Source: Streptomyces sp. H39-S7 (GTDB lineage: Bacteria; Actinomycetota; Actinomycetes; Streptomycetales; Streptomycetaceae). From it: DNA of 64,000 nt. The notes under the pieces were generated by a model. The model made no database searches, was not told the origin of the DNA, and saw nothing but the letters and a program-made list of their open reading frames with translations. The DNA lies in the NCBI RefSeq assembly GCF_027158205.1, contig NZ_JAPVLU010000034.1, positions 1 through 64,000 on the forward strand. The letters run 5' to 3'. The position numbers and the translations under genes were made by a program. Shown here one piece after another: positions 37,248 through 44,630 of this stretch. The number at the start of each line of letters is the position of its first letter. The stretch's first letter is position 1.

Positions 37248-37499
37248 ATGTGCCGAAGCATCAAGACTCTCCGACCCCCGATGACTCCCGACGTCGATGA
37301 GGACGACATCAGGGCCGCGGCGTTGCAGTACGTCCGCAAGGTCTCCGGATTCCGCGCCCCGGCCGCCCACAACCGCGAAGCCTTCGATCAGGCGGTGGAC
37401 GCGGTGGCCGAGGCCACCCGGCAGCTCCTCGCCGAGCTGACCGTACGCGGCGCCCCGACGCCTGCCGTCACGGTCTCGACTGCTTCCTCACAGGGGTAG
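37248..37499 (+). CDS. DUF2277 family protein
   Basis: 83 residues from ATG 37248. The start MCRSIKTLRPP and the core RAAALQYVRKVSGFRAPAAH with AFDQAVDAVAEATRQLL match DUF2277, a small helical family with the MCRNI/MCRSI start that is widespread in actinobacteria, with no known function. The invariant N-terminal Cys-Arg may be functional. The C-terminal 18 residues (TPAVTVSTASSQG end) extend past the usual family length. Confidence 0.88.
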   Translation: MCRSIKTLRPPMTPDVDEDDIRAAALQYVRKVSGFRAPAAHNREAFDQAVDAVAEATRQLLAELTVRGAPTPAVTVSTASSQG

Positions 37500-37512
37500 T
37501 GCAGCTCGAACG

Positions 37513-37683
37513 TCACCAGGTCGAGGGCGACTTCCTCGACACCGTCAGCTCATCGGCCAGAGCTTCCAGCTCGACGGGGCCACCATCGAGGGGGTGCTCA
37601 CGCACAACGATGCGGACGAGCTGGCTGTCGTTGTCCACCGTCTTGCCGGTGAGGTCGGAGAAGCGGATGAGTTTCTGCCCCAT
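37513..37683 (-). CDS. Hypothetical protein, 56 aa, possibly truncated
   Basis: ATG 37683 (AGGTGA upstream) gives 56 residues: GQKLIRFSDLTGKTVDNDSQ and LVRIVVREHPLDGGPVELEA, then LADELTVSRKSPSTW. The first part is a compact beta-rich segment that I have seen as a short conserved actinobacterial protein, but I cannot name it. The last ten residues look out of character, so a 3' frameshift or deletion is possible. It ends 13 bp from the convergent DUF2277 stop. It marks the left edge of the lower-GC island. Confidence 0.5.
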   Translation of the reverse strand: MGQKLIRFSDLTGKTVDNDSQLVRIVVREHPLDGGPVELEALADELTVSRKSPSTW

Positions 37684-37757
37684 GAGGTCACCTGTCGTTG
37701 CTGAGTGAGCGTCGAAGGTGAATTTCATCAGAGGTCGTGGCGCCGTTACCTGGACAG

Positions 37758-38522
37758 TCAGTCATTCGTAAGGCGGGCATCCCCCCAGGTTGCCCGCACG
37801 AAGGATTCCCTCGGCGTAGTGTTGGCGGTGTACAGCTTGATTTTGCTGGCACCTGATATCGGGACCTTGATGTCCTGGCTTTCGAACATCTTGAGCGTGT
37901 ATTCAGCGACGGGCGCAGCATCATCATCGAGATATATCTGGAATGACATGCCTGTCACGCTGTACTTACTATTGATGTCAATGCCGATGGTGGCGCGGAA
38001 ATACTTCCAATCGGCTGGGACTTTGTACGCGAAAGTGTACTCCGTGAACGGGTTCACACTCCGCAGGCTGTGCATATAGGTCGTATGATTCCCCCGAGAG
38101 TTCAGCTCTGCGGTTTTGACGCTGTTATCCCCCGTGAGCGCTTGCGAGTTCGAGAGGTACTCACTCGACGCAGTGGCACGTGGGCCTGATCCACCTTTGG
38201 GGCCGTTGGTGGCGCTGGTGGGAGGCGGGGAGGTTTCTTCACCGGTACTAGGGGCTGCCGTCGTGGGAAATTCCGTTGTTGGAGTAGGTGAAGTCGATTC
38301 CAACCCAGACGGGCTTGAGGATAAAGGCGTTGCGCTTGGGGCAATGGGAGTCGAGATCGATGGCTCAGCAGGTTTCGCGTCAGAAGAACTGTCTGACTTT
38401 AGGCCATCTTGCACAAGCCCGCCAATGAGTGTACCCAACGCCCCCAGGACCACCAGAAGGATGGCGAGTTTAGCCTTATTGCTACGGAACCAATGCGGAT
38501 CGTCTGGACTTACCGTGCTCAT
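37758..38522 (-). CDS. Membrane-anchored NPCBM-like protein
   Basis: 254 residues from ATG 38522 (GGGGGAAG upstream). One membrane helix (KLAILLVVLGALGTLIGGLV, about residues 17-36) is followed by a long Ser/Thr/Pro linker (about 40-115), suggesting an extracytoplasmic domain. The C-terminal 130 residues (KTAELNSRGNHTTYMHSLRS, FTYKV-type strands, KYFRATIGIDINSKYSVTGM, VPISGASKIKLYTANTT) have the pattern of NPCBM/NEW2 carbohydrate-binding domains seen in Streptomyces accessory regions. GC and codon bias are visibly weaker than in neighbouring core genes, a sign of recent acquisition. Confidence 0.75.
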   Translation of the reverse strand: MSTVSPDDPHWFRSNKAKLAILLVVLGALGTLIGGLVQDGLKSDSSSDAKPAEPSISTPIAPSATPLSSSPSGLESTSPTPTTEFPTTAAPSTGEETSPPPTSATNGPKGGSGPRATASSEYLSNSQALTGDNSVKTAELNSRGNHTTYMHSLRSVNPFTEYTFAYKVPADWKYFRATIGIDINSKYSVTGMSFQIYLDDDAAPVAEYTLKMFESQDIKVPISGASKIKLYTANTTPRESFVRATWGDARLTND

Positions 38523-38573
38523 AGCTTCCCCCACCTACACCCCGATACGGCACCGGTTCGCGAGACAGTACAT

Positions 38574-38601
38574 GACCCCAGGACTAGCTAGTCCCGGGGT
38601 C
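38574..38601. promoter_or_regulatory. 28-bp palindrome upstream of the NPCBM gene
   Basis: GACCCCAGGACTAG (38574-38587) faces CTAGTCCCGGGGTC (38588-38601); all pairs match except A80/C95 of the 38500s. It could be a terminator after the 39-aa gene or an operator 52 bp before the NPCBM gene. Confidence 0.55.
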
Positions 38602-38724
38602 GAGAATGGTTGCGCTGTTGTTACCCATGACCACAGCAGACGACGAGATGTCTTGGCTGGAGGCCGTCGCAGCTAATTGATCATCGTCGCCTACTGGCCA
38701 CGACATTCATCACCATGAGACTCA

Positions 38725-38844
38725 TCAGCCCGAACAGGCATCCGAGTGCGTCAGGGAGAGGCCGTTGCGCATCATGTCCGCCAGGGTGCACATAATGCCC
38801 GTTACGACCAGTAGAAGGATTGCTAGAAAGCCATCCTCATTCAC
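38725..38844 (-). CDS. Small membrane peptide, 39 aa
   Basis: GTG 38844 is preceded by AAGGAGAAC and opens a 39-codon frame. Residues 4-20 are one hydrophobic helix (GFLAILLLVVTGIMCTLADM); the tail is polar (RNGLSLTHSDACSG). A good ribosome-binding site and a membrane helix make it plausible, but small hydrophobic frames also arise by chance. It lies 202 bp upstream of the NPCBM membrane protein on the same strand. Confidence 0.4.
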   Translation of the reverse strand: MNEDGFLAILLLVVTGIMCTLADMMRNGLSLTHSDACSG

Positions 38845-39161
38845 AACGTTCTCCTTCAAAGTAATCGCTGATGCGTCCCTGCTGTGGGAAGTCCAGCGAC
38901 ACGTACAGATCAGCGCGGACACTGGGCGGCACTTCCGTTCTACCTCTCAGTCCGCGACCGAGAGAACGTCCGATTTCTCGGCTCACCGCAACTCAAAATA
39001 GGTCTCGGCCATCAAGCGGGCGTGGTTTTTGACGTTGGAGGAGAGGCGCCCTTCGATGTCCAGGAGCAGCCGCCCTGCGCGTCCGAGTTGGTACACGAAC
39101 GCCCCTGCCCCGCCCTTACATGGGCAGCAACAACTCGTTCGCGGTGGGCAGACAACCCCAC
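38845..39161. other. Gap without recognisable gene
   Basis: About 317 bp of mixed composition. Several short frames exist, but none has a ribosome-binding site together with codon bias. No repeats or hairpins of note. Confidence 0.4.
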
Positions 39162-39372
39162 ATGAACGTCATCACCCTGGCGGAATTCAGCGACGGCCGG
39201 ATTACCGCTGACGAACTCCGGCGGCCTCACCTTCAAGCTGCGCGAACCGCAGGGAGACTGCGTGGCCAGTCTGTGGACCTTCGCCACGACGTGCGACGAC
39301 AAGTACTTGGCCGAGGTGGCCAACGAAGGCGCCGCCATCATCGCCGAGTGTGACGCCGTCCTCAACCGCTGA
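39162..39372 (+). pseudogene. Frameshifted small gene
   Basis: From ATG 39162 the frame reads NVITLAEFSDGRITADEL, then loses coding character near 39215. From there a different frame takes over with strong third-position GC (SGGLTFKLREPQGDCVASLW, TFATTCDDKYLAEVANEG, then AAIIAECDAVLNR and TGA 39372). That second frame has no start of its own. A single indel around 39200-39225 would join them into a protein of about 70 residues. The family is unknown; a programmed shift cannot be excluded. Confidence 0.4.
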
Positions 39373-39403
39373 CTCCTGACCGCATTGGTCCACACACCCC
39401 GTT

Positions 39404-39454
39404 CCACAACGAAGAACGCCCCGCGTTCGTTGTGGCTGCGGGGTGTTCTTCGTT
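39404..39454 (+). promoter_or_regulatory. Two mutually exclusive hairpins (attenuator- or terminator-like)
   Basis: Hairpin A pairs CCACAACGAA (39404-39413) with TTCGTTGTGG (39426-39435). Hairpin B pairs 39408-39424 with 39438-39454, 17 bp with one G-U, and is followed by TCTC. They share 39408-39413, so only one can form. They lie between the frameshifted gene and the 190-aa gene. Confidence 0.6.
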
Positions 39455-39593
39455 TCTCAGGCGTGCATGCGCTGACTCGCTCTTGCTGACCTCTCAGGTC
39501 AAGGTTCAGCATCCGATCACTAGATTCACTCCCTCGCTGCCTTCATCCGCAGTAGCGTGCGTAGCGATGAGAGCGACAAAGCAGGGGGTAGTA

Positions 39594-40166
39594 ATGGAGG
39601 ATTTCGCTGATCAGGTTCGCAAGGCCCAGGAGGCCACAGCTAGGAAGAATCAGGAACGGCAGGCAGCGAACGCTAAATTGCGCGAGGAGCAGGAAGCAAC
39701 CAGGGCCGAGGTCACCAAGGCGGCCGGTCTGCTTTCCCGGGCACTGCATGGTCGAGTGATTCCCACAGACATCCTCGTAGAACACTATGAGTCGCGCCTC
39801 AGAAGGAAGCGGTTCGGGGGGACAGTACGCGAAGCGGCCACACACCATGTGCTCGACGGATGGGTATTCGGCGAAACCCGTCATACCTTTCATGACCTCG
39901 ACTCTATGTCTGGCCGAACTGAGAGGCGTGTGGTGGGCTTCATCCTGGCCGAAGATGGCAGCGTTCACCAATGCAATGCCAATTACATTGAGGCTTCGGG
40001 GAGCGGCCACATCTCCGTGACGGTGAGCGACTCGTGGGGTAGTAGCATCCACAACGGACCGATGGATGCGACCGCGATGCACGTGCACCGTAGCGGCGTT
40101 CTGGAGGGGATGGTGCAGCTCGCAGTGAAGCACCACATCAACCCATCCAGCCTGGCACCCTCCTAG
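39594..40166 (+). CDS. Hypothetical protein with coiled-coil N-terminus
   Basis: 190 residues from ATG 39594, which follows GGGGGTAGTA. Residues about 5-45 are a charged coiled coil (QVRKAQEATARKNQERQAAN, KLREEQEATRAEVTKAAGLL). The rest is alpha/beta (RRKRFGGTVREAATHHVLDG, WVFGETRHTF, then VGFILAEDGSVHQCNANYIE). No signal peptide or membrane helix. Codon use is weaker than in core genes. A terminator follows at 40256. It resembles hypothetical proteins of actinobacterial mobile regions but I cannot name a family. Confidence 0.7.
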   Translation: MEDFADQVRKAQEATARKNQERQAANAKLREEQEATRAEVTKAAGLLSRALHGRVIPTDILVEHYESRLRRKRFGGTVREAATHHVLDGWVFGETRHTFHDLDSMSGRTERRVVGFILAEDGSVHQCNANYIEASGSGHISVTVSDSWGSSIHNGPMDATAMHVHRSGVLEGMVQLAVKHHINPSSLAPS

Positions 40167-40255
40167 CGTTCTTCATATCCAGACCTACCCTCTCCGCCGG
40201 CGCGGGCTTGGTCGCCTGGTTCTACCGCGCACGCCTGTTCCGTACAGACCCAGAG

Positions 40256-40285
40256 CACCCCTGACGCAACTGCACGTCAGGGGTG
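40256..40285 (+). terminator. Hairpin terminator
   Basis: CACCCCTGACG (40256-40266) pairs with CGTCAGGGGTG (40275-40285) perfectly over 11 bp with an 8-nt loop, 90 nt after the 190-aa gene. Confidence 0.8.
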
Positions 40286-40343
40286 TCGTGCCGCCCACAG
40301 GGGGATCCTGTGTCTACAGGCGGCAGCTCTGGAGGTATGACGC

Positions 40344-40613
40344 CTACAGCTTCTGGAGCGGGAGGGACGAAACCTTGGCATCAAGCGCCAATTCCGCCCA
40401 CACCACCTTGCCCCCGACCTTCGGGTAGAAGTGGCCGACCTTGCGCGCCAGGGTGTCCACGATGAACAGCCCTCTTCCGCCTTCGGCCTCATCGTCGGCG
40501 CCGGCCGTTGGTTGATCGAGCGGTTCTTCTCCCACATCCCACACCTGGAGGCAGATGCAGTCCTCGCAACCGAAGATGCCTCGGTCGTGGTCAGAAAAGG
40601 GACGGAGCTTCAT
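40344..40613 (-). pseudogene. 5'-truncated HATPase_c_2 anti-sigma-like ATPase
   Basis: The frame retains the C-terminal half of an RsbW-like GHKL ATPase: ICLQVWDVGEEPLDQPTAGA (G1 region, degenerate), EAEGGRGLFIVDTLA (G2) and KVGGKVVWAELAL (closing strand). The N box with the Mg-binding Asn/Glu is missing; upstream the frame runs into the end of the exonuclease gene. AbaA-like ATPases of this kind belong to whiJ-type loci together with XRE/DUF5753 regulators, so this is probably a decayed member of the neighbouring locus. Confidence 0.65.
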
Positions 40614-41172
40614 CGACCCTCCCGCCGGGTGGCGTGCCGCGCAGTTCTTCCAGCGAGCCGGCTACGGTGGCGAGCCGGACGAAGAGACGCGCTGCAACCA
40701 AGGCGTCGTACGTGGCGCGGTGAGGACGCAAGCCTTCCGGCAGATCAACGTCCAGGTTGAACGCTTGCACCAGCGATCCCAGCCGGAAACTGACCTGCCC
40801 CGGCAGGAAGCGGCGCGCGAGCTTGAGCGTGTCGAACACCTCGGGACTCGCCCAATCGGGCAGCTTGCGTCGGAGGACGTTGGTGTCAACGTAGGCGTTG
40901 TGCGCCACGAAGGCCGAGACGTCCAACGCCTGCAGTACGTCGTTCTCGATGTCCGCAAACATGGGGGCGTCGGCCACGTCCTTGTTGCTGATGCCATGCA
41001 GACGCTGAGCCATCGGGGTGATCGCGTAGTTGGGACGCATCAACCACGACACCGGCTCCCCGATGACACCCCCGACGATCGGGACGACGGCCAGTTCCAC
41101 CAACTCGGGCGGCTGCTGGCCGTTGCCTTCCACGTCGACGACCGCGTACGTAAGTTCCGTCCAGTCAGCCAT
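40591..41172 (-). CDS. DEDDh 3'-5' exonuclease (DnaQ-like)
   Basis: 193 residues from ATG 41172, overlapping the end of the radical SAM gene by 8 bp. Exonuclease motifs: ExoI AVVDVEGNG (Asp, Glu), ExoII FVAHNAYVDTNVL (Asp), ExoIII HRATYDALVAARLF (His, Asp) - a complete DEDDh set. LHGISNKDVADAP is the usual loop after motif I. Standing alone rather than fused to a polymerase, it would degrade or trim single-stranded DNA or RNA. It is the last gene of a five-gene leftward cassette; coupling to the radical SAM gene suggests a shared substrate. Confidence 0.92.
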   Translation of the reverse strand: MADWTELTYAVVDVEGNGQQPPELVELAVVPIVGGVIGEPVSWLMRPNYAITPMAQRLHGISNKDVADAPMFADIENDVLQALDVSAFVAHNAYVDTNVLRRKLPDWASPEVFDTLKLARRFLPGQVSFRLGSLVQAFNLDVDLPEGLRPHRATYDALVAARLFVRLATVAGSLEELRGTPPGGRVDEAPSLF

Positions 41173-42337
41173 TGTCTGTGCCGTCCTTCCATCCGATGTC
41201 CGCCCGACCATGTCGTCGGTTGAGGTGGGGGTGGCGAACGTCGTGCACCTGGAAGCCGAGCGCGTGCTGTAGGTAATAGCGCGGCTGCTCCTCGATCAGC
41301 CCAGACACGACGGCTGCGCCCTCTGTAATGTCAACGACCACGAGGTCACTGGCGTCAGGCAAAGTGCTCGCCACCTGGTGGATCTGTTGCCGCGTCGGCA
41401 CGCGGTGAGCGCCCCGGCAGAGATCAAGCTGAGCCAACAGGCAGATGTCGCAGAGATCAGGGATGCCGTAGTGGCCGTTGTAGTCCGGGTCGCCATGCGC
41501 GAAGGACACCGCACACGAGGTCTTGCGGAACAACGAGTCGCTGCCGGCAAAGGTTGAAAGGATCCGTCTCTCCAGCGTCTCTGGCACGATCTTGCGCCGG
41601 GCGGTTTCGCCGTACGGCTCCGGCAGTCCGTTCGCCTGGTAGTACTCGGCGATCTGGTCGCGGTAGAAGAGGCCGGTAAAGACGGTGGTGTCGGCGTGCT
41701 TGCTCAGTTCGTATGCCGCATCAAGGTGCTCGGGCGAGTCGTTGAGACCTGGCACCAGCGGACGCCAGTAGAGAACCGTCCGATAGCGGCGGTTAAGCGG
41801 GTTGCTCATGAGCTTGAGCGACTCGGCGGCCACCCTCGACGGGTAGGGCTCGATCTGCCGGTTGTCGATGCCCGAGTAGGTGAACAGCAGCGTCACCTTG
41901 ATGTGCCGGAGCCGTTCGAGCCGGTCGACGTCCGCAGCCTTCATCTGGTGCCTGGTGATGACGAGCACGTGGTTCGTCAGGTTCCGTGCGTCCAGGTCTT
42001 CCAGGACGGCGAAGGTGTGCGGCCGAACCACTGGCAAGAACGGGTCGGTAGCGCGGTTGAACACCTGTACCGGCGTGACATGCGGTTGGAAGTACCGGTG
42101 ATTGACCAGTGCTTCCACTGCCTCGGCGTCGCTCATGAGGGCGCGTGGCACCCGCTGATCCCACAGGCCGTAGGTGTGGCGGATGCAGTAGGCGCAGTCG
42201 AGCGGGCACCCTTGGATGTGGTTGAGGCTGAGTCCGCTCTTGCGGTACTCGACGACTTCGCGGGCGCGTTCCGGCATGCGCTCGATCTGATCGCGCGTTA
42301 AAAGCTGCACTGAGAAAGGCGCCTGACGGCCTCCCAT
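41165..42337 (-). CDS. Radical SAM protein with extra C-terminal cysteines
   Basis: 390 residues from ATG 42337. The [4Fe-4S]/SAM site is LNHIQGCPLDCAYC (Cys 44, 48, 51; Cx3Cx2C). Strands typical of the barrel follow (PVQVFNRATDPFLPVVRPHT, NHVLVITRHQMKAADVDRL, IKVTLLFTYSGIDNRQIEPY, YWRPLVPGLNDSPEHLDAAY). It resembles spore-photoproduct-lyase-like radical SAM proteins that begin directly with the cluster. A second cysteine group near residues 270-310 (KTSCAVSFAHG, PDLCDICLLAQLDLCRGAH) could bind an auxiliary cluster or zinc. Partner gene is an exonuclease, so a nucleic-acid substrate is inferred. The start has only a weak ribosome-binding site; a hairpin lies in the leader at 42364-42381. Confidence 0.9.
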   Translation of the reverse strand: MGGRQAPFSVQLLTRDQIERMPERAREVVEYRKSGLSLNHIQGCPLDCAYCIRHTYGLWDQRVPRALMSDAEAVEALVNHRYFQPHVTPVQVFNRATDPFLPVVRPHTFAVLEDLDARNLTNHVLVITRHQMKAADVDRLERLRHIKVTLLFTYSGIDNRQIEPYPSRVAAESLKLMSNPLNRRYRTVLYWRPLVPGLNDSPEHLDAAYELSKHADTTVFTGLFYRDQIAEYYQANGLPEPYGETARRKIVPETLERRILSTFAGSDSLFRKTSCAVSFAHGDPDYNGHYGIPDLCDICLLAQLDLCRGAHRVPTRQQIHQVASTLPDASDLVVVDITEGAAVVSGLIEEQPRYYLQHALGFQVHDVRHPHLNRRHGRADIGWKDGTDNG

Positions 42338-42402
42338 GTCCGAAAACGGAGTGCGCAGTCACGCGCTCCTTTTGAGGAGCGTAGGGGCGTCAGTTGTGCC
42401 TG

Positions 42403-42431
42403 AATAGAAAGTTTCTCAGAGTTTCTAGCAA
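42403..42431 (-). promoter_or_regulatory. Promoter with direct repeats for the radical SAM-exonuclease genes
   Basis: Leftward: -35 TTGCTA (42431-42426), 17-bp spacer, -10 TCTATT (42408-42403). The spacer holds two AGAAACT repeats (plus strand AGTTTCT at 42410-42416 and 42420-42426) 10 bp apart, a likely regulator site. A 7-bp hairpin CGCTCCT/AGGAGCG at 42364-42381 lies in the resulting leader. Confidence 0.55.
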
Positions 42432-42459
42432 TACACTTGGAGGAGTAACGCCCGCGAAA

Positions 42460-43347
42460 TTAGGCGCCATCTTCCGCTGAGTCGGGGGCGAGATCTTCCA
42501 TGACCCGATTGATGATCGCGCGTGCCGACCGGCCATAGCTGGCGACGGCGGCGAGCTGTTCGAAGGCGCTGCCGTACAGCTCGATTTCCTGCGGCTGGCG
42601 GAGGTCGAGTTCGGCCGACAAGGTCTCAATGAGTACCCGGTCGTTGTCGTAGAGCCAGAAGCCGTGCCATGGCGAAGTAGCGTACTGCGTTTCAAAGCCG
42701 ACGATTCCGAGGCGTACGTTGGGCAGTTGAGAGAGGGAGATCAGCCGGTCAAGTTGGCCGAGCATGACATCTGGTGCACAGAGGCGGAACCGAAGCGCCG
42801 CTTCTGTGAGTACGAAGTGGAACCGCTTGTCTGGCCGATACAGAGTATCTTGCCGCTGCACTCGTCCGGCTACGGCCTCGTTGATGTCATTGGGCAACTT
42901 GAAACGGCGGATACCTTCGGCGAAGCGGGCGCGGGCGTACTCCGGCGTTTGAAGCAGACCAGGAATCACCGTCGCCTCGAAGGCACGGAAGAGCCGCGTC
43001 TTCTGATCCCACGAGACCAGCTCTTGCTGATGGGGTCTCAAGCCGGTTCGCAGGATGCGTTGCCACTCAGCGTGCTGCACTTCAAGCGTGTGCAGCGACG
43101 CGAGCAGGGCTTCCGTCTCATCCAAACTGTCTGTTGCTGCCGTCCAACCACGGAGGTCGTCGTCAGTGGGTGTCTGACGGCCGTTTTCTAGCTTGGACAC
43201 TTTGGAAGGAGGCCACGACAAAGATTCCGCGAGCTGCCTGCCGCTTTGTCCAGACGAAAGGCGAAGCTCACGAAGTCGTTTGCCCAGGATGCTCCTGGCC
43301 TCGTGGACGTTAGACGAGCCCGAGGTGTTGTTCGGTGGCAAAGTCAT
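42460..43347 (-). CDS. XRE regulator with DUF5753 (Scr1/WhiJ-type)
   Basis: 295 residues from ATG 43347. N-terminal helix-turn-helix: ILGKRLRELRLSSGQSGRQL and AESLSWPPSKVSKLENGRQT (residues about 18-57). The C-terminal 200 residues are DUF5753: LVSWDQKTRLFRAFEATVIP, GLLQTPEYARARF, RVQRQDTLYRPDKRFHFVLT, EAALRF, PNVRLGIVGFET and DNDRVLIETLSAELDL. WhiJ-type regulators act with small partner proteins in development and in accessory loci. It overlaps the DUF6879 gene by 38 bp, so the two are translated together, and lies 122 bp upstream of the radical SAM gene that has its own promoter. Confidence 0.92.
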   Translation of the reverse strand: MTLPPNNTSGSSNVHEARSILGKRLRELRLSSGQSGRQLAESLSWPPSKVSKLENGRQTPTDDDLRGWTAATDSLDETEALLASLHTLEVQHAEWQRILRTGLRPHQQELVSWDQKTRLFRAFEATVIPGLLQTPEYARARFAEGIRRFKLPNDINEAVAGRVQRQDTLYRPDKRFHFVLTEAALRFRLCAPDVMLGQLDRLISLSQLPNVRLGIVGFETQYATSPWHGFWLYDNDRVLIETLSAELDLRQPQEIELYGSAFEQLAAVASYGRSARAIINRVMEDLAPDSAEDGA

Positions 43348-43846
43348 CCCGCCTGTTAGCGCGATGCCACGCGGCATCTCGCCAGTAGTTGTGCTTCACG
43401 ATCTCGACGGCATCATCGATGATTTCCCCGCCGAGGAAGGCATCGGAATCATCGAAGTGCATCCGTACCAGCTTGCGCGAGTCGAACAGCCAGAAATCGT
43501 GATCGGGTAGGTTCTCGGCTTCGGCCTGGTCACGCGTGAGGTAGCGGATATCTTCCCCTGCCCCATTGGTGAACTGAGCACACCACACGCCGAAGCGGCT
43601 GTAGTCGGTGAGCGGCAAGCCGACCACCCGCACGCGGGCGAAGCGGCGCCCCTTCGACGTCGCTTCCCGGATCATGGTCAACCAGTCCTGCATCCACGGC
43701 AGTTTGTCCTTCGCCTGCGCGAGGAACTTCCGCACCGACTCGTTCTCGTAGTCGGCGTCGTAGCGGTCGCGTACCTCAAGGCGAAAGGCCGTGTGCTCGA
43801 ACGACTTGAAGAGCTGGCCGAACTCGTCACCGCCCAGAAGTCTCAG
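43310..43846 (-). CDS. DUF6879 family protein with apparent CTG start
   Basis: 178 residues. The conserved family N-terminus (LRLLGGDEFGQLFKSFEHTA, FRLEVRDRYDADYENESV) begins at CTG 43846; no ATG, GTG or TTG is available before residue 45. AAGGAGG lies 7 nt upstream, and the CTG overlaps the stop of the previous gene as CTGA, mirroring the common ATGA coupling. The rest (FTNGAGEDIRYLTRDQAEAE, HDFWLFDSRKLVRMHFDD, EIVKHNYWRDAAWHRANRR) is typical of DUF6879, which accompanies XRE/DUF5753 regulators in streptomycetes. Biochemical function unknown; the fixed pairing suggests it is a partner of the regulator. Confidence 0.85.
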   Translation of the reverse strand: MRLLGGDEFGQLFKSFEHTAFRLEVRDRYDADYENESVRKFLAQAKDKLPWMQDWLTMIREATSKGRRFARVRVVGLPLTDYSRFGVWCAQFTNGAGEDIRYLTRDQAEAENLPDHDFWLFDSRKLVRMHFDDSDAFLGGEIIDDAVEIVKHNYWRDAAWHRANRRDDFATEQHLGLV

Positions 43847-44079
43847 CGCCCTTCCTCCTTGTTCAAGTAGCGGAGGGCGTACATCTTGAGGACGTCTTCC
43901 GGGATCTCGATGAGAGCTTCGTGGTCAGGTACATCGCCGGCGTCGGCCAGCACCTGGGGGTCTGTCACCTTCCACCCTTGTGCAATGTAGGTGACACGGT
44001 CGGTGCGATCGGTAGCGAAGAGAGTGGGCGAGTTGCCCACTCGAGACTCAGGATCCTTGCCGAGGAACTGGGCACGCAT
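43843..44079 (-). CDS. Small protein of the XRE-DUF6879 locus, 78 aa
   Basis: ATG 44079 follows GGAGG by 5 nt. The 78 residues (MRAQFLGKDPESRVGNSPTL, TDRTDRVTYIAQGWKVTDPQ, HEALIEIPEDVLKMYALRYL) form a small alpha/beta protein. Very similar short proteins precede DUF6879-XRE pairs in many Streptomyces genomes, so it is a regular member of the set, but no function is known. It is the first gene of the leftward cassette, and its stop overlaps the next start. Confidence 0.85.
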   Translation of the reverse strand: MRAQFLGKDPESRVGNSPTLFATDRTDRVTYIAQGWKVTDPQVLADAGDVPDHEALIEIPEDVLKMYALRYLNKEEGR

Positions 44080-44101
44080 AGCGCCTCCATGCTCGAACCA
44101 T

Positions 44102-44150
44102 CGAGAAATGTTCTCGTAGCACGGTGGTTGCTGAAGGCGACCCGTGTCAA
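44102..44150 (-). promoter_or_regulatory. Promoter region of the five-gene cassette
   Basis: Leftward, a perfect -35 TTGACA (44150-44145) and an 18-bp spacer lead to CACCGT (44126-44121). CGAGAA-ATG-TTCTCG, a perfect 6-3-6 palindrome, lies at 44102-44116 around the predicted transcript start and 23 nt before the ATG. Confidence 0.5.
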
Positions 44151-44372
44151 GACGGTGGCGAGGCGTGCACCTGCTGTCAGAGACACTGCGGCGCATGGAT
44201 TGGCTGGTCGGCGGCCCATCGTGAGACGTCCGTTATTGCCTCTGGCCAACCTTGACGGCACGGCGGGTCGCCTGGGCGACGTCGAGCTCGCCGACACCTA
44301 TACGCCGGGACGGTCCGTAGATCACGGCAAAGGCGTCGAAGAACCCGAGGATGCATTGCCACGCAGTCGACT

Positions 44373-44531
44373 GGGCGACGACTTTCGAGGTCGACGGCAC
44401 CGACGCCGCGGTGGAGCGGGCCACCGCGGCCGGCGGCACGGCGGGGGTCCCCGAGGACATGGTCTACGGAAGGATCGCGACCATCACCGACCCGTTCGGC
44501 ACGGAGTTCTCCGTCATCACCAGGGCGTGAT
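44373..44531 (+). pseudogene. 3' fragment of a VOC-family gene
   Basis: The frame reads VDWATTFEVDGTDAAVERAT, AAGGTAGVPEDMVYGRIATI, TDPFGTEFSVITRA and stops at 44531. This is the last 50-odd residues of a VOC (glyoxalase-like) protein. Upstream the frame loses similarity at about 44370, exactly where the lower-GC island ends. It is most simply a host gene cut by the arrival or rearrangement of the island. The 5' part was not found in the window. Confidence 0.75.
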
Positions 44532-44630
44532 GACCGCGCCCTCACGGCGGGTTCGACGCCAGGGCACCGGCGCCGGCACTTCCCCTCCCGGTGCCGGGGC
44601 CGGTGTCCTCGTCCGGCCGCTGAGGTCAGG

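Follow-up and report, generated by a model that had tools for sequence, protein, structure and literature searches.

The DNA analyzed here is a stretch of 64,000 nucleotides from Streptomyces sp. H39-S7 (positions 1 to 64,000 of contig NZ_JAPVLU010000034.1; hereafter, the window), and the subject is a cassette centered on a gene for a radical S-adenosylmethionine (radical SAM) enzyme. In the window, this cassette comprises five genes, all on the minus strand (40591-44079), with overlaps of 4, 38 and 8 bp between neighbors, as described in the original prediction, which was made from the sequence alone; place and strand hold for all five genes. The 390-aa radical SAM protein (P0002; 41165-42337) combines a core resembling spore photoproduct lyase (SPL) with a C-terminal region containing four cysteines, and matches the Pfam radical SAM family below the Pfam cut-off (PF04055, E = 0.0013). 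Its gene overlaps by 8 bp that of a 193-aa ExoX-like DEDDh 3'-5' exonuclease (P0003; 40591-41172; PF00929, E = 5.4e-18). The remaining three genes form a putative regulatory trio. Its first member, a 78-aa protein (P0004; 43843-44079) with homologs upstream of the radical SAM gene in loci of the window's own type (type A, see below), produced no matches in a scan of Pfam and NCBIfam at E = 1. The second gene, which overlaps the first by 4 bp, starts with CTG and encodes a DUF6879 protein (P0001; 43310-43846; PF21806, E = 2e-54), and the third, with a 38 bp overlap, encodes an XRE/DUF5753 regulator (P0005; 42460-43347; PF19054, E = 2.8e-34; HTH_31, E = 3.1e-11) that matches the Sco1979-type model of NCBIfam at E = 4e-34, yet scores 117.9 bits, short of the cut-off of 350.

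Immediately downstream, a sixth reading frame (40344-40613, minus strand) overlaps the exonuclease gene by 23 bp and is the scar of a lost gene: the first 14 codons of a thymidylate-kinase-like gene (40572-40613) are fused to the C-terminal part of an HATPase_c_2 protein (PF13581, E = 5.1e-5; 23.7 bits, under the Pfam cut-off of 27.4). In the related locus L020, of Streptomyces sp. PTY087I2, the exonuclease gene overlaps, also by 23 bp, the gene of a third enzyme, a 213-aa thymidylate-kinase-like protein (PF02223, E = 1.1e-28) that exceeds the cut-off of the NCBIfam dTMP kinase model TIGR00041 (113.6 vs 83.25 bits). The scar frame and the L020 kinase open with 12 identical residues, MKLRPFSDHDRG, after which the scar frame passes into the end of an HATPase_c_2-like protein of the kind found further downstream in L020; the blastn alignment of the window with L020 breaks off at about position 40557. 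By this comparison, the kinase gene has been removed from the window by deletion, and because of this loss, the window copy probably does not function as a complete system. The genome of the same strain contains a single PF02223 match, on contig C58, likely a housekeeping gene, and a second cassette, on contig C66 (L072), that consists of genes for a radical SAM enzyme, an exonuclease, an AAA_28 kinase and an aldo-keto reductase. The third enzymatic member of the cassette went unnoticed in the original prediction because it is deleted in the window; the decayed copy illustrates how the completing gene of a cassette can escape notice when a single genome is read alone.

We found 53 loci in which the radical SAM gene is covered over at least 80% of its length. 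Excluded before counting were L033 (a copy of L029), L092 (the same locus as L081) and L048 (a relative with 28% identity); L031, L032, L049 and L091, where the gene is not covered to 80% by any one match, fall outside this set, and L039, with a broken frame, and L100, with a shortened gene, fall within it (in broken genes, stop codons were treated as X). The exonuclease is present in 51 of the 53 loci (all except L046 and L100) and the kinase in 50 (all except the window, L084 and L100). The distance matrices of the radical SAM protein and the exonuclease are closely correlated (r = 0.94 across 51 loci; 0.81 in the 13 type-A loci and 0.95 in the 36 loci of types B and C), and those of the radical SAM protein and the kinase likewise (r = 0.84 and 0.88); in 2000 permutations each, not one of these values was reached. 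Two types of kinases, the thymidylate-kinase type and AAA_28, fill the same slot, though they are 15-22% identical. Because the same gene order recurs in relatives, it reflects more than chance. The radical SAM-exonuclease pair, for which the original prediction suggested searching elsewhere, is thus a conserved, co-inherited unit; rather than being confined to this locus, or joined to unrelated partners in every other one, it recurs with the same partners in relatives.

Among genome contigs, the radical SAM gene has 14 loci with 70-85% identity, in Streptomyces, Actinomadura, Saccharopolyspora, Amycolatopsis, Frankia and others. Matches were also detected in 40 of 72,556 plasmid records, 28 of which reach a query coverage of at least 80%, and include plasmids of Mesorhizobium, Agrobacterium, Sinorhizobium, Labrenzia, Gluconobacter and Nostoc. 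Within the family of the window's strain, 33 of 297 genomes contain matches, and within its genus, 15 of 35 (partial genes included). A phylum-wide draw at E = 1e-60 recovered one of 396 genomes, the window's own, with the best four candidates at most scored per genome, because of which we give more weight to the family survey. The search of 50,697 phage records yielded no matches, and neither did IMG/VR with P0002 alone as the query; with alignment A1 as the query, IMG/VR yielded seven loci. Five of these (L092-L096) show the gene order of Streptomyces type B, and we therefore do not claim phage carriage. The cassette is mobile, with relatives in three phyla. No description of a radical SAM-exonuclease-kinase cassette turned up in a literature search, so far as the available portions of the papers go; one candidate (PMC10853773) concerns, in its available portion, Dnd systems and is not the same as the cassette.

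The loci fall into three types. Type A, that of the window, consists of genes for the small protein, DUF6879, XRE/DUF5753, radical SAM enzyme, exonuclease, in some loci an aldo-keto reductase, and the thymidylate-kinase-like protein; L030 is a type-A locus without the trio. Type B, found in Streptomycetaceae, encodes a hydroxymethylase of the MilA type, a nucleoside diphosphate kinase (NDK), the radical SAM enzyme, the exonuclease, an AAA_28 kinase and an aldo-keto reductase; the hydroxymethylase and NDK are missing from L072, L079, L083, L089 and L090, and the reductase is absent in some loci. Type C, from Alphaproteobacteria, has a core of radical SAM enzyme, exonuclease and AAA_28 kinase, with the next gene encoding a SAMHD1-like HD protein (L036, L044, L047 and L099), an aldo-keto reductase (L045 and L098) or neither (L034, L035 and L097). 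The Nostoc locus (L046) contains the radical SAM and kinase genes without the exonuclease. In L084 (G001:C6), the exonuclease is present, and the kinase slot is occupied by a 234-aa protein that we take to be HAD-like. L048 and the plasmid hits H46 and H47 are distant radical SAM relatives, with 25-28% identity. L048 has no exonuclease or kinase matches nearby; in H46 and H47, the radical SAM match also overlaps a helix-turn-helix gene.

The original prediction pointed to a Cx3Cx2C site and additional C-terminal cysteines in P0002, and both are borne out by the alignment: C44/C48/C51 are invariant in 26 sequences, and so are C275, C296, C299 and C307 in the C-terminal third, which might bind an auxiliary Fe-S cluster. 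P0002 reached none of the NCBIfam cut-offs (23.3 of 360 bits for rSAM_PA0069, 18.2 of 430 for Rv2578c and 16.4 of 410 for mob_pairB), its NCBIfam matches at E = 1 included no viperin model, and it matched none of the PADLOC models of anti-phage systems at E = 1; presumably, both libraries hold viperin models. An AlphaFold2 model of P0002 (pLDDT 82.0, pTM 0.84, 19 sequences), which replaced a first one (pLDDT 68.5; fold matches led by NifB and SuiB), has the predicted partial TIM-barrel fold of radical SAM enzymes, and the top 13 Foldseek matches all belong to this superfamily. Both structure searches place SPL at the top (4fhc; Foldseek E = 7.3e-6; in the second search, Z = 13.6 and root-mean-square deviation 3.8 over 252 residues, model residues 7-273), followed by the PFL-activating enzyme (Z = 13.1), lipoyl synthase (13.0) and viperin (5vsm, 11.1; viperin 5vsl, Foldseek E = 8.9e-3). 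Because Z values less than 1 apart count as tied, SPL leads, but not alone. The hydrogen donor of SPL is C140; P0002 contains no cysteine in residues 52-274, and a C140-type residue has no counterpart in its core. In the type-B copies of the alignment and in L030, a cysteine is aligned near residue 137.

The partner genes encode enzymes of nucleotide metabolism. The nearest relative of the type-B 'thymidylate synthase', as it is annotated, is the CMP 5-hydroxymethylase MilA (5jnh, E = 7.1e-73), with the best match to a thymidylate synthase at E = 7.7e-14. In MilA, according to the available portion of the report (PMC5175136), K133, A176 and D186 are the determinants of ribose and cytosine recognition and C155 is the nucleophile. 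The hydroxymethylase of L037 retains all four residues, Cys155, Lys133, Ala176 and Asp186, as counted along the alignment; across copies, as judged by motif, A176 is present in 23 of 23, D186 in all 22 examined (L092 left out) and K133 in 22 of 23 (L040 being unsettled). Because this MilA-type partner keeps the determinant residues, it points to pyrimidine chemistry at the nucleotide level. The HD protein of L044 matches PDB entry 2o6i (E = 2.4e-44) and, less closely, SAMHD1 (E = 7.5e-19), and the AAA_28 kinase found no informative match among PDB sequences. The type-B NDK of L037 (7885-8937) is a tandem of two NDK domains, and that of L038 has one. A clearing enzyme of the MazG type was considered and dropped: the L041 protein so named matches Pfam MazG at E = 0.0033, under the cut-off.

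The nuclease, described in the original prediction as a complete DEDDh enzyme, indeed has all catalytic motifs (DVEG, AHNAYVD and HRATYD). Its closest PDB sequence is ExoX (4fzx, E = 4.8e-20), its PADLOC matches are limited to the DEDDh (CRISPR-associated) and PDC-S48 models, and ISG20, with which the cassette exonuclease can be compared, matches weakly in sequence (E = 0.65). In seven of seven decayed loci, six with a broken radical SAM gene (L132-L134, L137, L138 and L140) and one in which none was detected (L135), the exonuclease gene is free of stops. The nearest relative of each of these seven persisting exonucleases, among 17 intact and six other broken loci, always belongs to an intact cassette, and the losses of the radical SAM gene therefore look independent. 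Such persistence fits a protective role of the exonuclease. Exonuclease matches are found also in L031, L032, L039 and L091, which were outside this integrity check. Several copies of the radical SAM gene have breaks, at positions that differ (L031, L032, L039, L132-L134, L137, L138 and L140), which suggests repeated loss.

The Alphaproteobacterial plasmid copies lie near defense genes. A named anti-phage or restriction product is encoded within 8-9 kb in five of seven stretches (L034-L036, L044, L045, L047 and L099), compared with none of seven control stretches, or one if the AbiEi-type antitoxin of L104 is counted; the controls were 17 kb of the same plasmids, about half a turn away. Toxin-antitoxin names, under which this AbiEi gene was entered, occur in four of the Alphaproteobacterial stretches vs two of the controls. 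The tally, made by hand from product names, leaves aside L100, which nearly duplicates L036, as well as L097 and L098, both viral contigs. Profile searches identified Gabija in L035 (GajA, E = 4.6e-242; GajB, E = 1.8e-225) together with a dGTPase, a CBASS cyclase, E1-E2 and phospholipase effector in L044, Shedu in L047, and LmuA of Lamassu in L099, with E-values from 7e-52 to 5e-242 for the Gabija, CBASS, Shedu and Lamassu models; among 10 control proteins scanned, one produced a weak match (E = 6.7e-11).

Regulation was examined in the type-A loci. A candidate operator, CGAGAA-n3-TTCTCG (44102-44116, minus strand), separates the small gene from a TTGACA box (44145-44150), and a second one, AGAAA-n-TTTCT (42406-42416, minus strand), is an inverted repeat in the gap between the XRE and radical SAM genes, at the candidate second promoter. 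Among 14 aligned type-A loci, TTGAC precedes the small gene in 13, and the perfect repeat GAGAA-n3-TTCTC is present in four, with six-base arms in three; the palindrome in the XRE-radical SAM gap is perfect in eight (AGAAA-n-TTTCT in six and AGCAA-n-TTGCT in two). In L026 and L029, this palindrome is changed on both arms, and such paired change suggests a candidate operator under selection. The second promoter before the radical SAM gene that had been proposed for the window gains support from a TAnnnT block downstream of the palindrome in all 14 loci as well as from the palindrome itself; it lacks support from a scan with the sigma-70 consensus, which returned no promoter-like sites, along with two terminator-like sites, no more than in shuffled sequences.

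The lower-GC island that the original prediction placed around the genes is real: GC content is 61.3% over 7.1 kb (37463-44561), compared with about 68-77% in intervals of 2 kb beyond the island. G007 and G019, two genomes from this genus, lack the stretch, although their flanks align at about 86-94%. In G019, the flanks are separated by 2.2 kb of different sequence, including a 624-aa reading frame that, we presume, resembles a glycoside hydrolase; in G007, they are separated by 2.9 kb, of which 160 bp match window positions 44371-44530 at 92%. The cassette therefore occupies a variable spot. No long direct repeat pair was found at both island ends, only weak pairs. The island also encodes an NPCBM-domain protein (37758-38534; PF08305, E = 1.5e-9), a 244-aa protein without a convincing family (39432-40166) and a 59-aa reading frame (44351-44530), conserved at 92% in G007 over 44371-44530, which we take to resemble a fragment of a VOC/glyoxalase-type protein.

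With a probability of about 0.4, we read the cassette as a pathway for a pyrimidine nucleotide analog, with the exonuclease for self-protection and an anti-phage or antibiotic use; its product would probably be an abnormal nucleotide directed against viruses or rival bacteria. Under this reading, the SPL-like enzyme with its extra Fe-S-type cysteine site would modify a pyrimidine nucleotide, and a P-loop nucleoside monophosphate (NMP) kinase, of the thymidylate-kinase type in the window's lineage and AAA_28 elsewhere, would help raise it to the triphosphate. In many Streptomycetaceae, the MilA-type CMP hydroxymethylase and NDK would join the kinase in precursor supply and triphosphate formation. 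The false nucleotide would block a polymerase; the DEDDh exonuclease would clear the host's own 3' ends of it, and the SAMHD1-like HD protein, where present, would remove it from the pool. In type A, the XRE/DUF5753 protein probably controls its own promoter and the second promoter before the radical SAM gene, via similar operators of the AGAA/TTCT type. The use is more likely anti-phage in Alphaproteobacteria and may be either anti-phage or antibiotic in Streptomyces.

Several observations weigh against this reading. The CMP-type hydroxymethylase and the thymidylate-type kinase indicate different pyrimidines, and MazG-type clearing is doubtful also because the relatives of the L041 protein in L042, L043 and L086 do not match Pfam MazG. 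The exonuclease, absent from Nostoc, is not indispensable; L136 retains the regulators and a radical SAM fragment without an exonuclease, the exonuclease match in L049 is split between frames, and L100 combines a shortened radical SAM gene with an IS30 transposase and has neither exonuclease nor kinase. The dN/dS values of the persisting exonucleases do not settle the matter, and one element of a motif pattern went undetected in three of these seven, compared with eight of 17 from intact loci. All 10 defense neighbors scanned match their profiles at E <= 1e-10, but these had been chosen by name. The proposal in the original prediction of an anti-phage module is thus favored by the Alphaproteobacterial stretches and not by the seven Actinobacterial plasmid stretches (L037-L043), which encode no named anti-phage products and have toxin-antitoxin genes in two. 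Finally, the radical SAM and XRE distances are uncorrelated (r = 0.08 in 11 loci; reached by 623 of 2000 permutations), and those of the small protein show r = 0.29 (85 of 2000 permutations). The five-gene unit as originally drawn is accordingly not the core: the trio was found only in the window's Actinobacterial type, and the kinase had been overlooked. A chance neighborhood without joint function, which the XRE distances would allow and the abundance of XRE, DUF6879 and HATPase genes in Streptomyces would make easy, is possible for the trio; for the radical SAM, exonuclease and kinase genes, it is refuted by the same order in three phyla (without the exonuclease in Nostoc), the overlapping frames and the matching distances, so that as an account of the whole cassette, it is scarcely tenable.

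Among the functional alternatives, a secreted nucleoside antibiotic from a thmABC- or mildiomycin-like cluster, made by the same chemistry and exported against competitors, with the exonuclease or a hydrolase conferring self-resistance, would explain the MilA-type enzyme and the lack of named anti-phage neighbors in the Actinobacterial plasmid copies, and has a precedent in thmABC, a radical SAM-kinase-triphosphatase set in which, by the available portion of its description, the triphosphatase confers resistance. It fits less well with the Alphaproteobacterial copies near defense genes and with six annotated Streptomyces plasmids, where no transporter gene occurs in the surveyed run from the hydroxymethylase to the aldo-keto reductase, and we consider it somewhat unlikely. 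By analogy with viperin, CMPK2, ISG20 and SAMHD1, the cassette might more specifically be an immune module with this logic in one gene run: with a sacrificial auxiliary Fe-S cluster, the SPL-like enzyme would make a pyrimidine nucleotide bearing sulfur or some other radical-made alteration, and this product would poison the replication of phages; the DEDDh enzyme would proofread it out of host DNA, and the SAMHD1-like protein would clear the pool; in this specific form, the proposal is unlikely. Nucleic acid repair, also raised in the original prediction, would have the SPL-like enzyme reverse a pyrimidine lesion, the exonuclease trim and the kinase recycle nucleotides. The fold and the ExoX-like exonuclease agree with it; the P0002 core without a C140-type cysteine (though type-B copies and L030 have one near residue 137) and the patchy distribution (33 of 297 family genomes) do not, and because the partners (CMP hydroxymethylase, NDK, kinase and SAMHD1-like, that is, dNTPase-like, HD protein) act on small nucleotides, repair is disfavored and, in our view, quite unlikely. 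Still less probable is hypermodification, in which a modified nucleotide would be built into host or plasmid DNA or RNA as protection: kinases and NDK are present, and some phages make modified pyrimidine nucleotides via thymidylate synthase relatives (PMC5175136, available portion), but the cassette holds neither a polymerase nor a sugar transferase, the hydroxymethylase signature favors ribo-CMP, and a 3'-5' exonuclease would counteract incorporation.

The nucleotide-analog reading can be set against several known systems. SPL is the closest solved fold (P0002 model residues 7-273) and shares the Cx3Cx2C site; P0002 differs in the cysteine-free stretch 52-274, the invariant C275/C296/C299/C307 and the nucleotide enzymes that accompany it in 50 of 53 loci. 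Among PDB entries, MilA of the mildiomycin pathway comes nearest to the type-B 'thymidylate synthase', which retains the ribo-CMP residues, but the hydroxymethylase is found in type B only, not in the window's type. The cassette exonuclease is related in sequence to Escherichia coli ExoX and shares its DEDDh motifs; unlike ExoX, it is bound in an operon and co-inherited with a radical SAM enzyme. CMPK2, a pyrimidine NMP kinase linked to viperin, is related to thymidylate kinases, and the combination of a radical SAM enzyme with a pyrimidine NMP kinase, together with viperin among the fold matches of P0002, makes viperin/SAND-CMPK2 a parallel of logic; the differences are the C-terminal Cys4 region, the exonuclease in the operon and the higher-ranking SPL fold (Z = 13.6). 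The product of the thmABC cluster of Photorhabdus is 4'-thiothymidine, an inhibitor of replication that becomes incorporated into DNA (PMC12691670, here and below as far as its available portion goes). The cluster resembles the cassette in uniting a radical SAM enzyme, a nucleoside or nucleotide kinase and a clearing self-resistance enzyme, in the pyrimidine product and in genes that cluster while their surroundings vary. The likeness is one of logic; the cassette has the radical SAM gene beside a kinase in 50 of 53 loci, not in the window, whereas ThmB is an AbmG-type nucleoside kinase, ThmC is a triphosphatase, and the three-gene cluster has no exonuclease (PMC12691670). Radical SAM enzymes that make false nucleotides connect antiviral immunity (viperin) with antibiotics (4'-thiothymidine and albomycin); if our reading is correct, the conserved unit of radical SAM enzyme, exonuclease and kinase would be a new source of nucleotide analogs with a built-in candidate self-protection enzyme.

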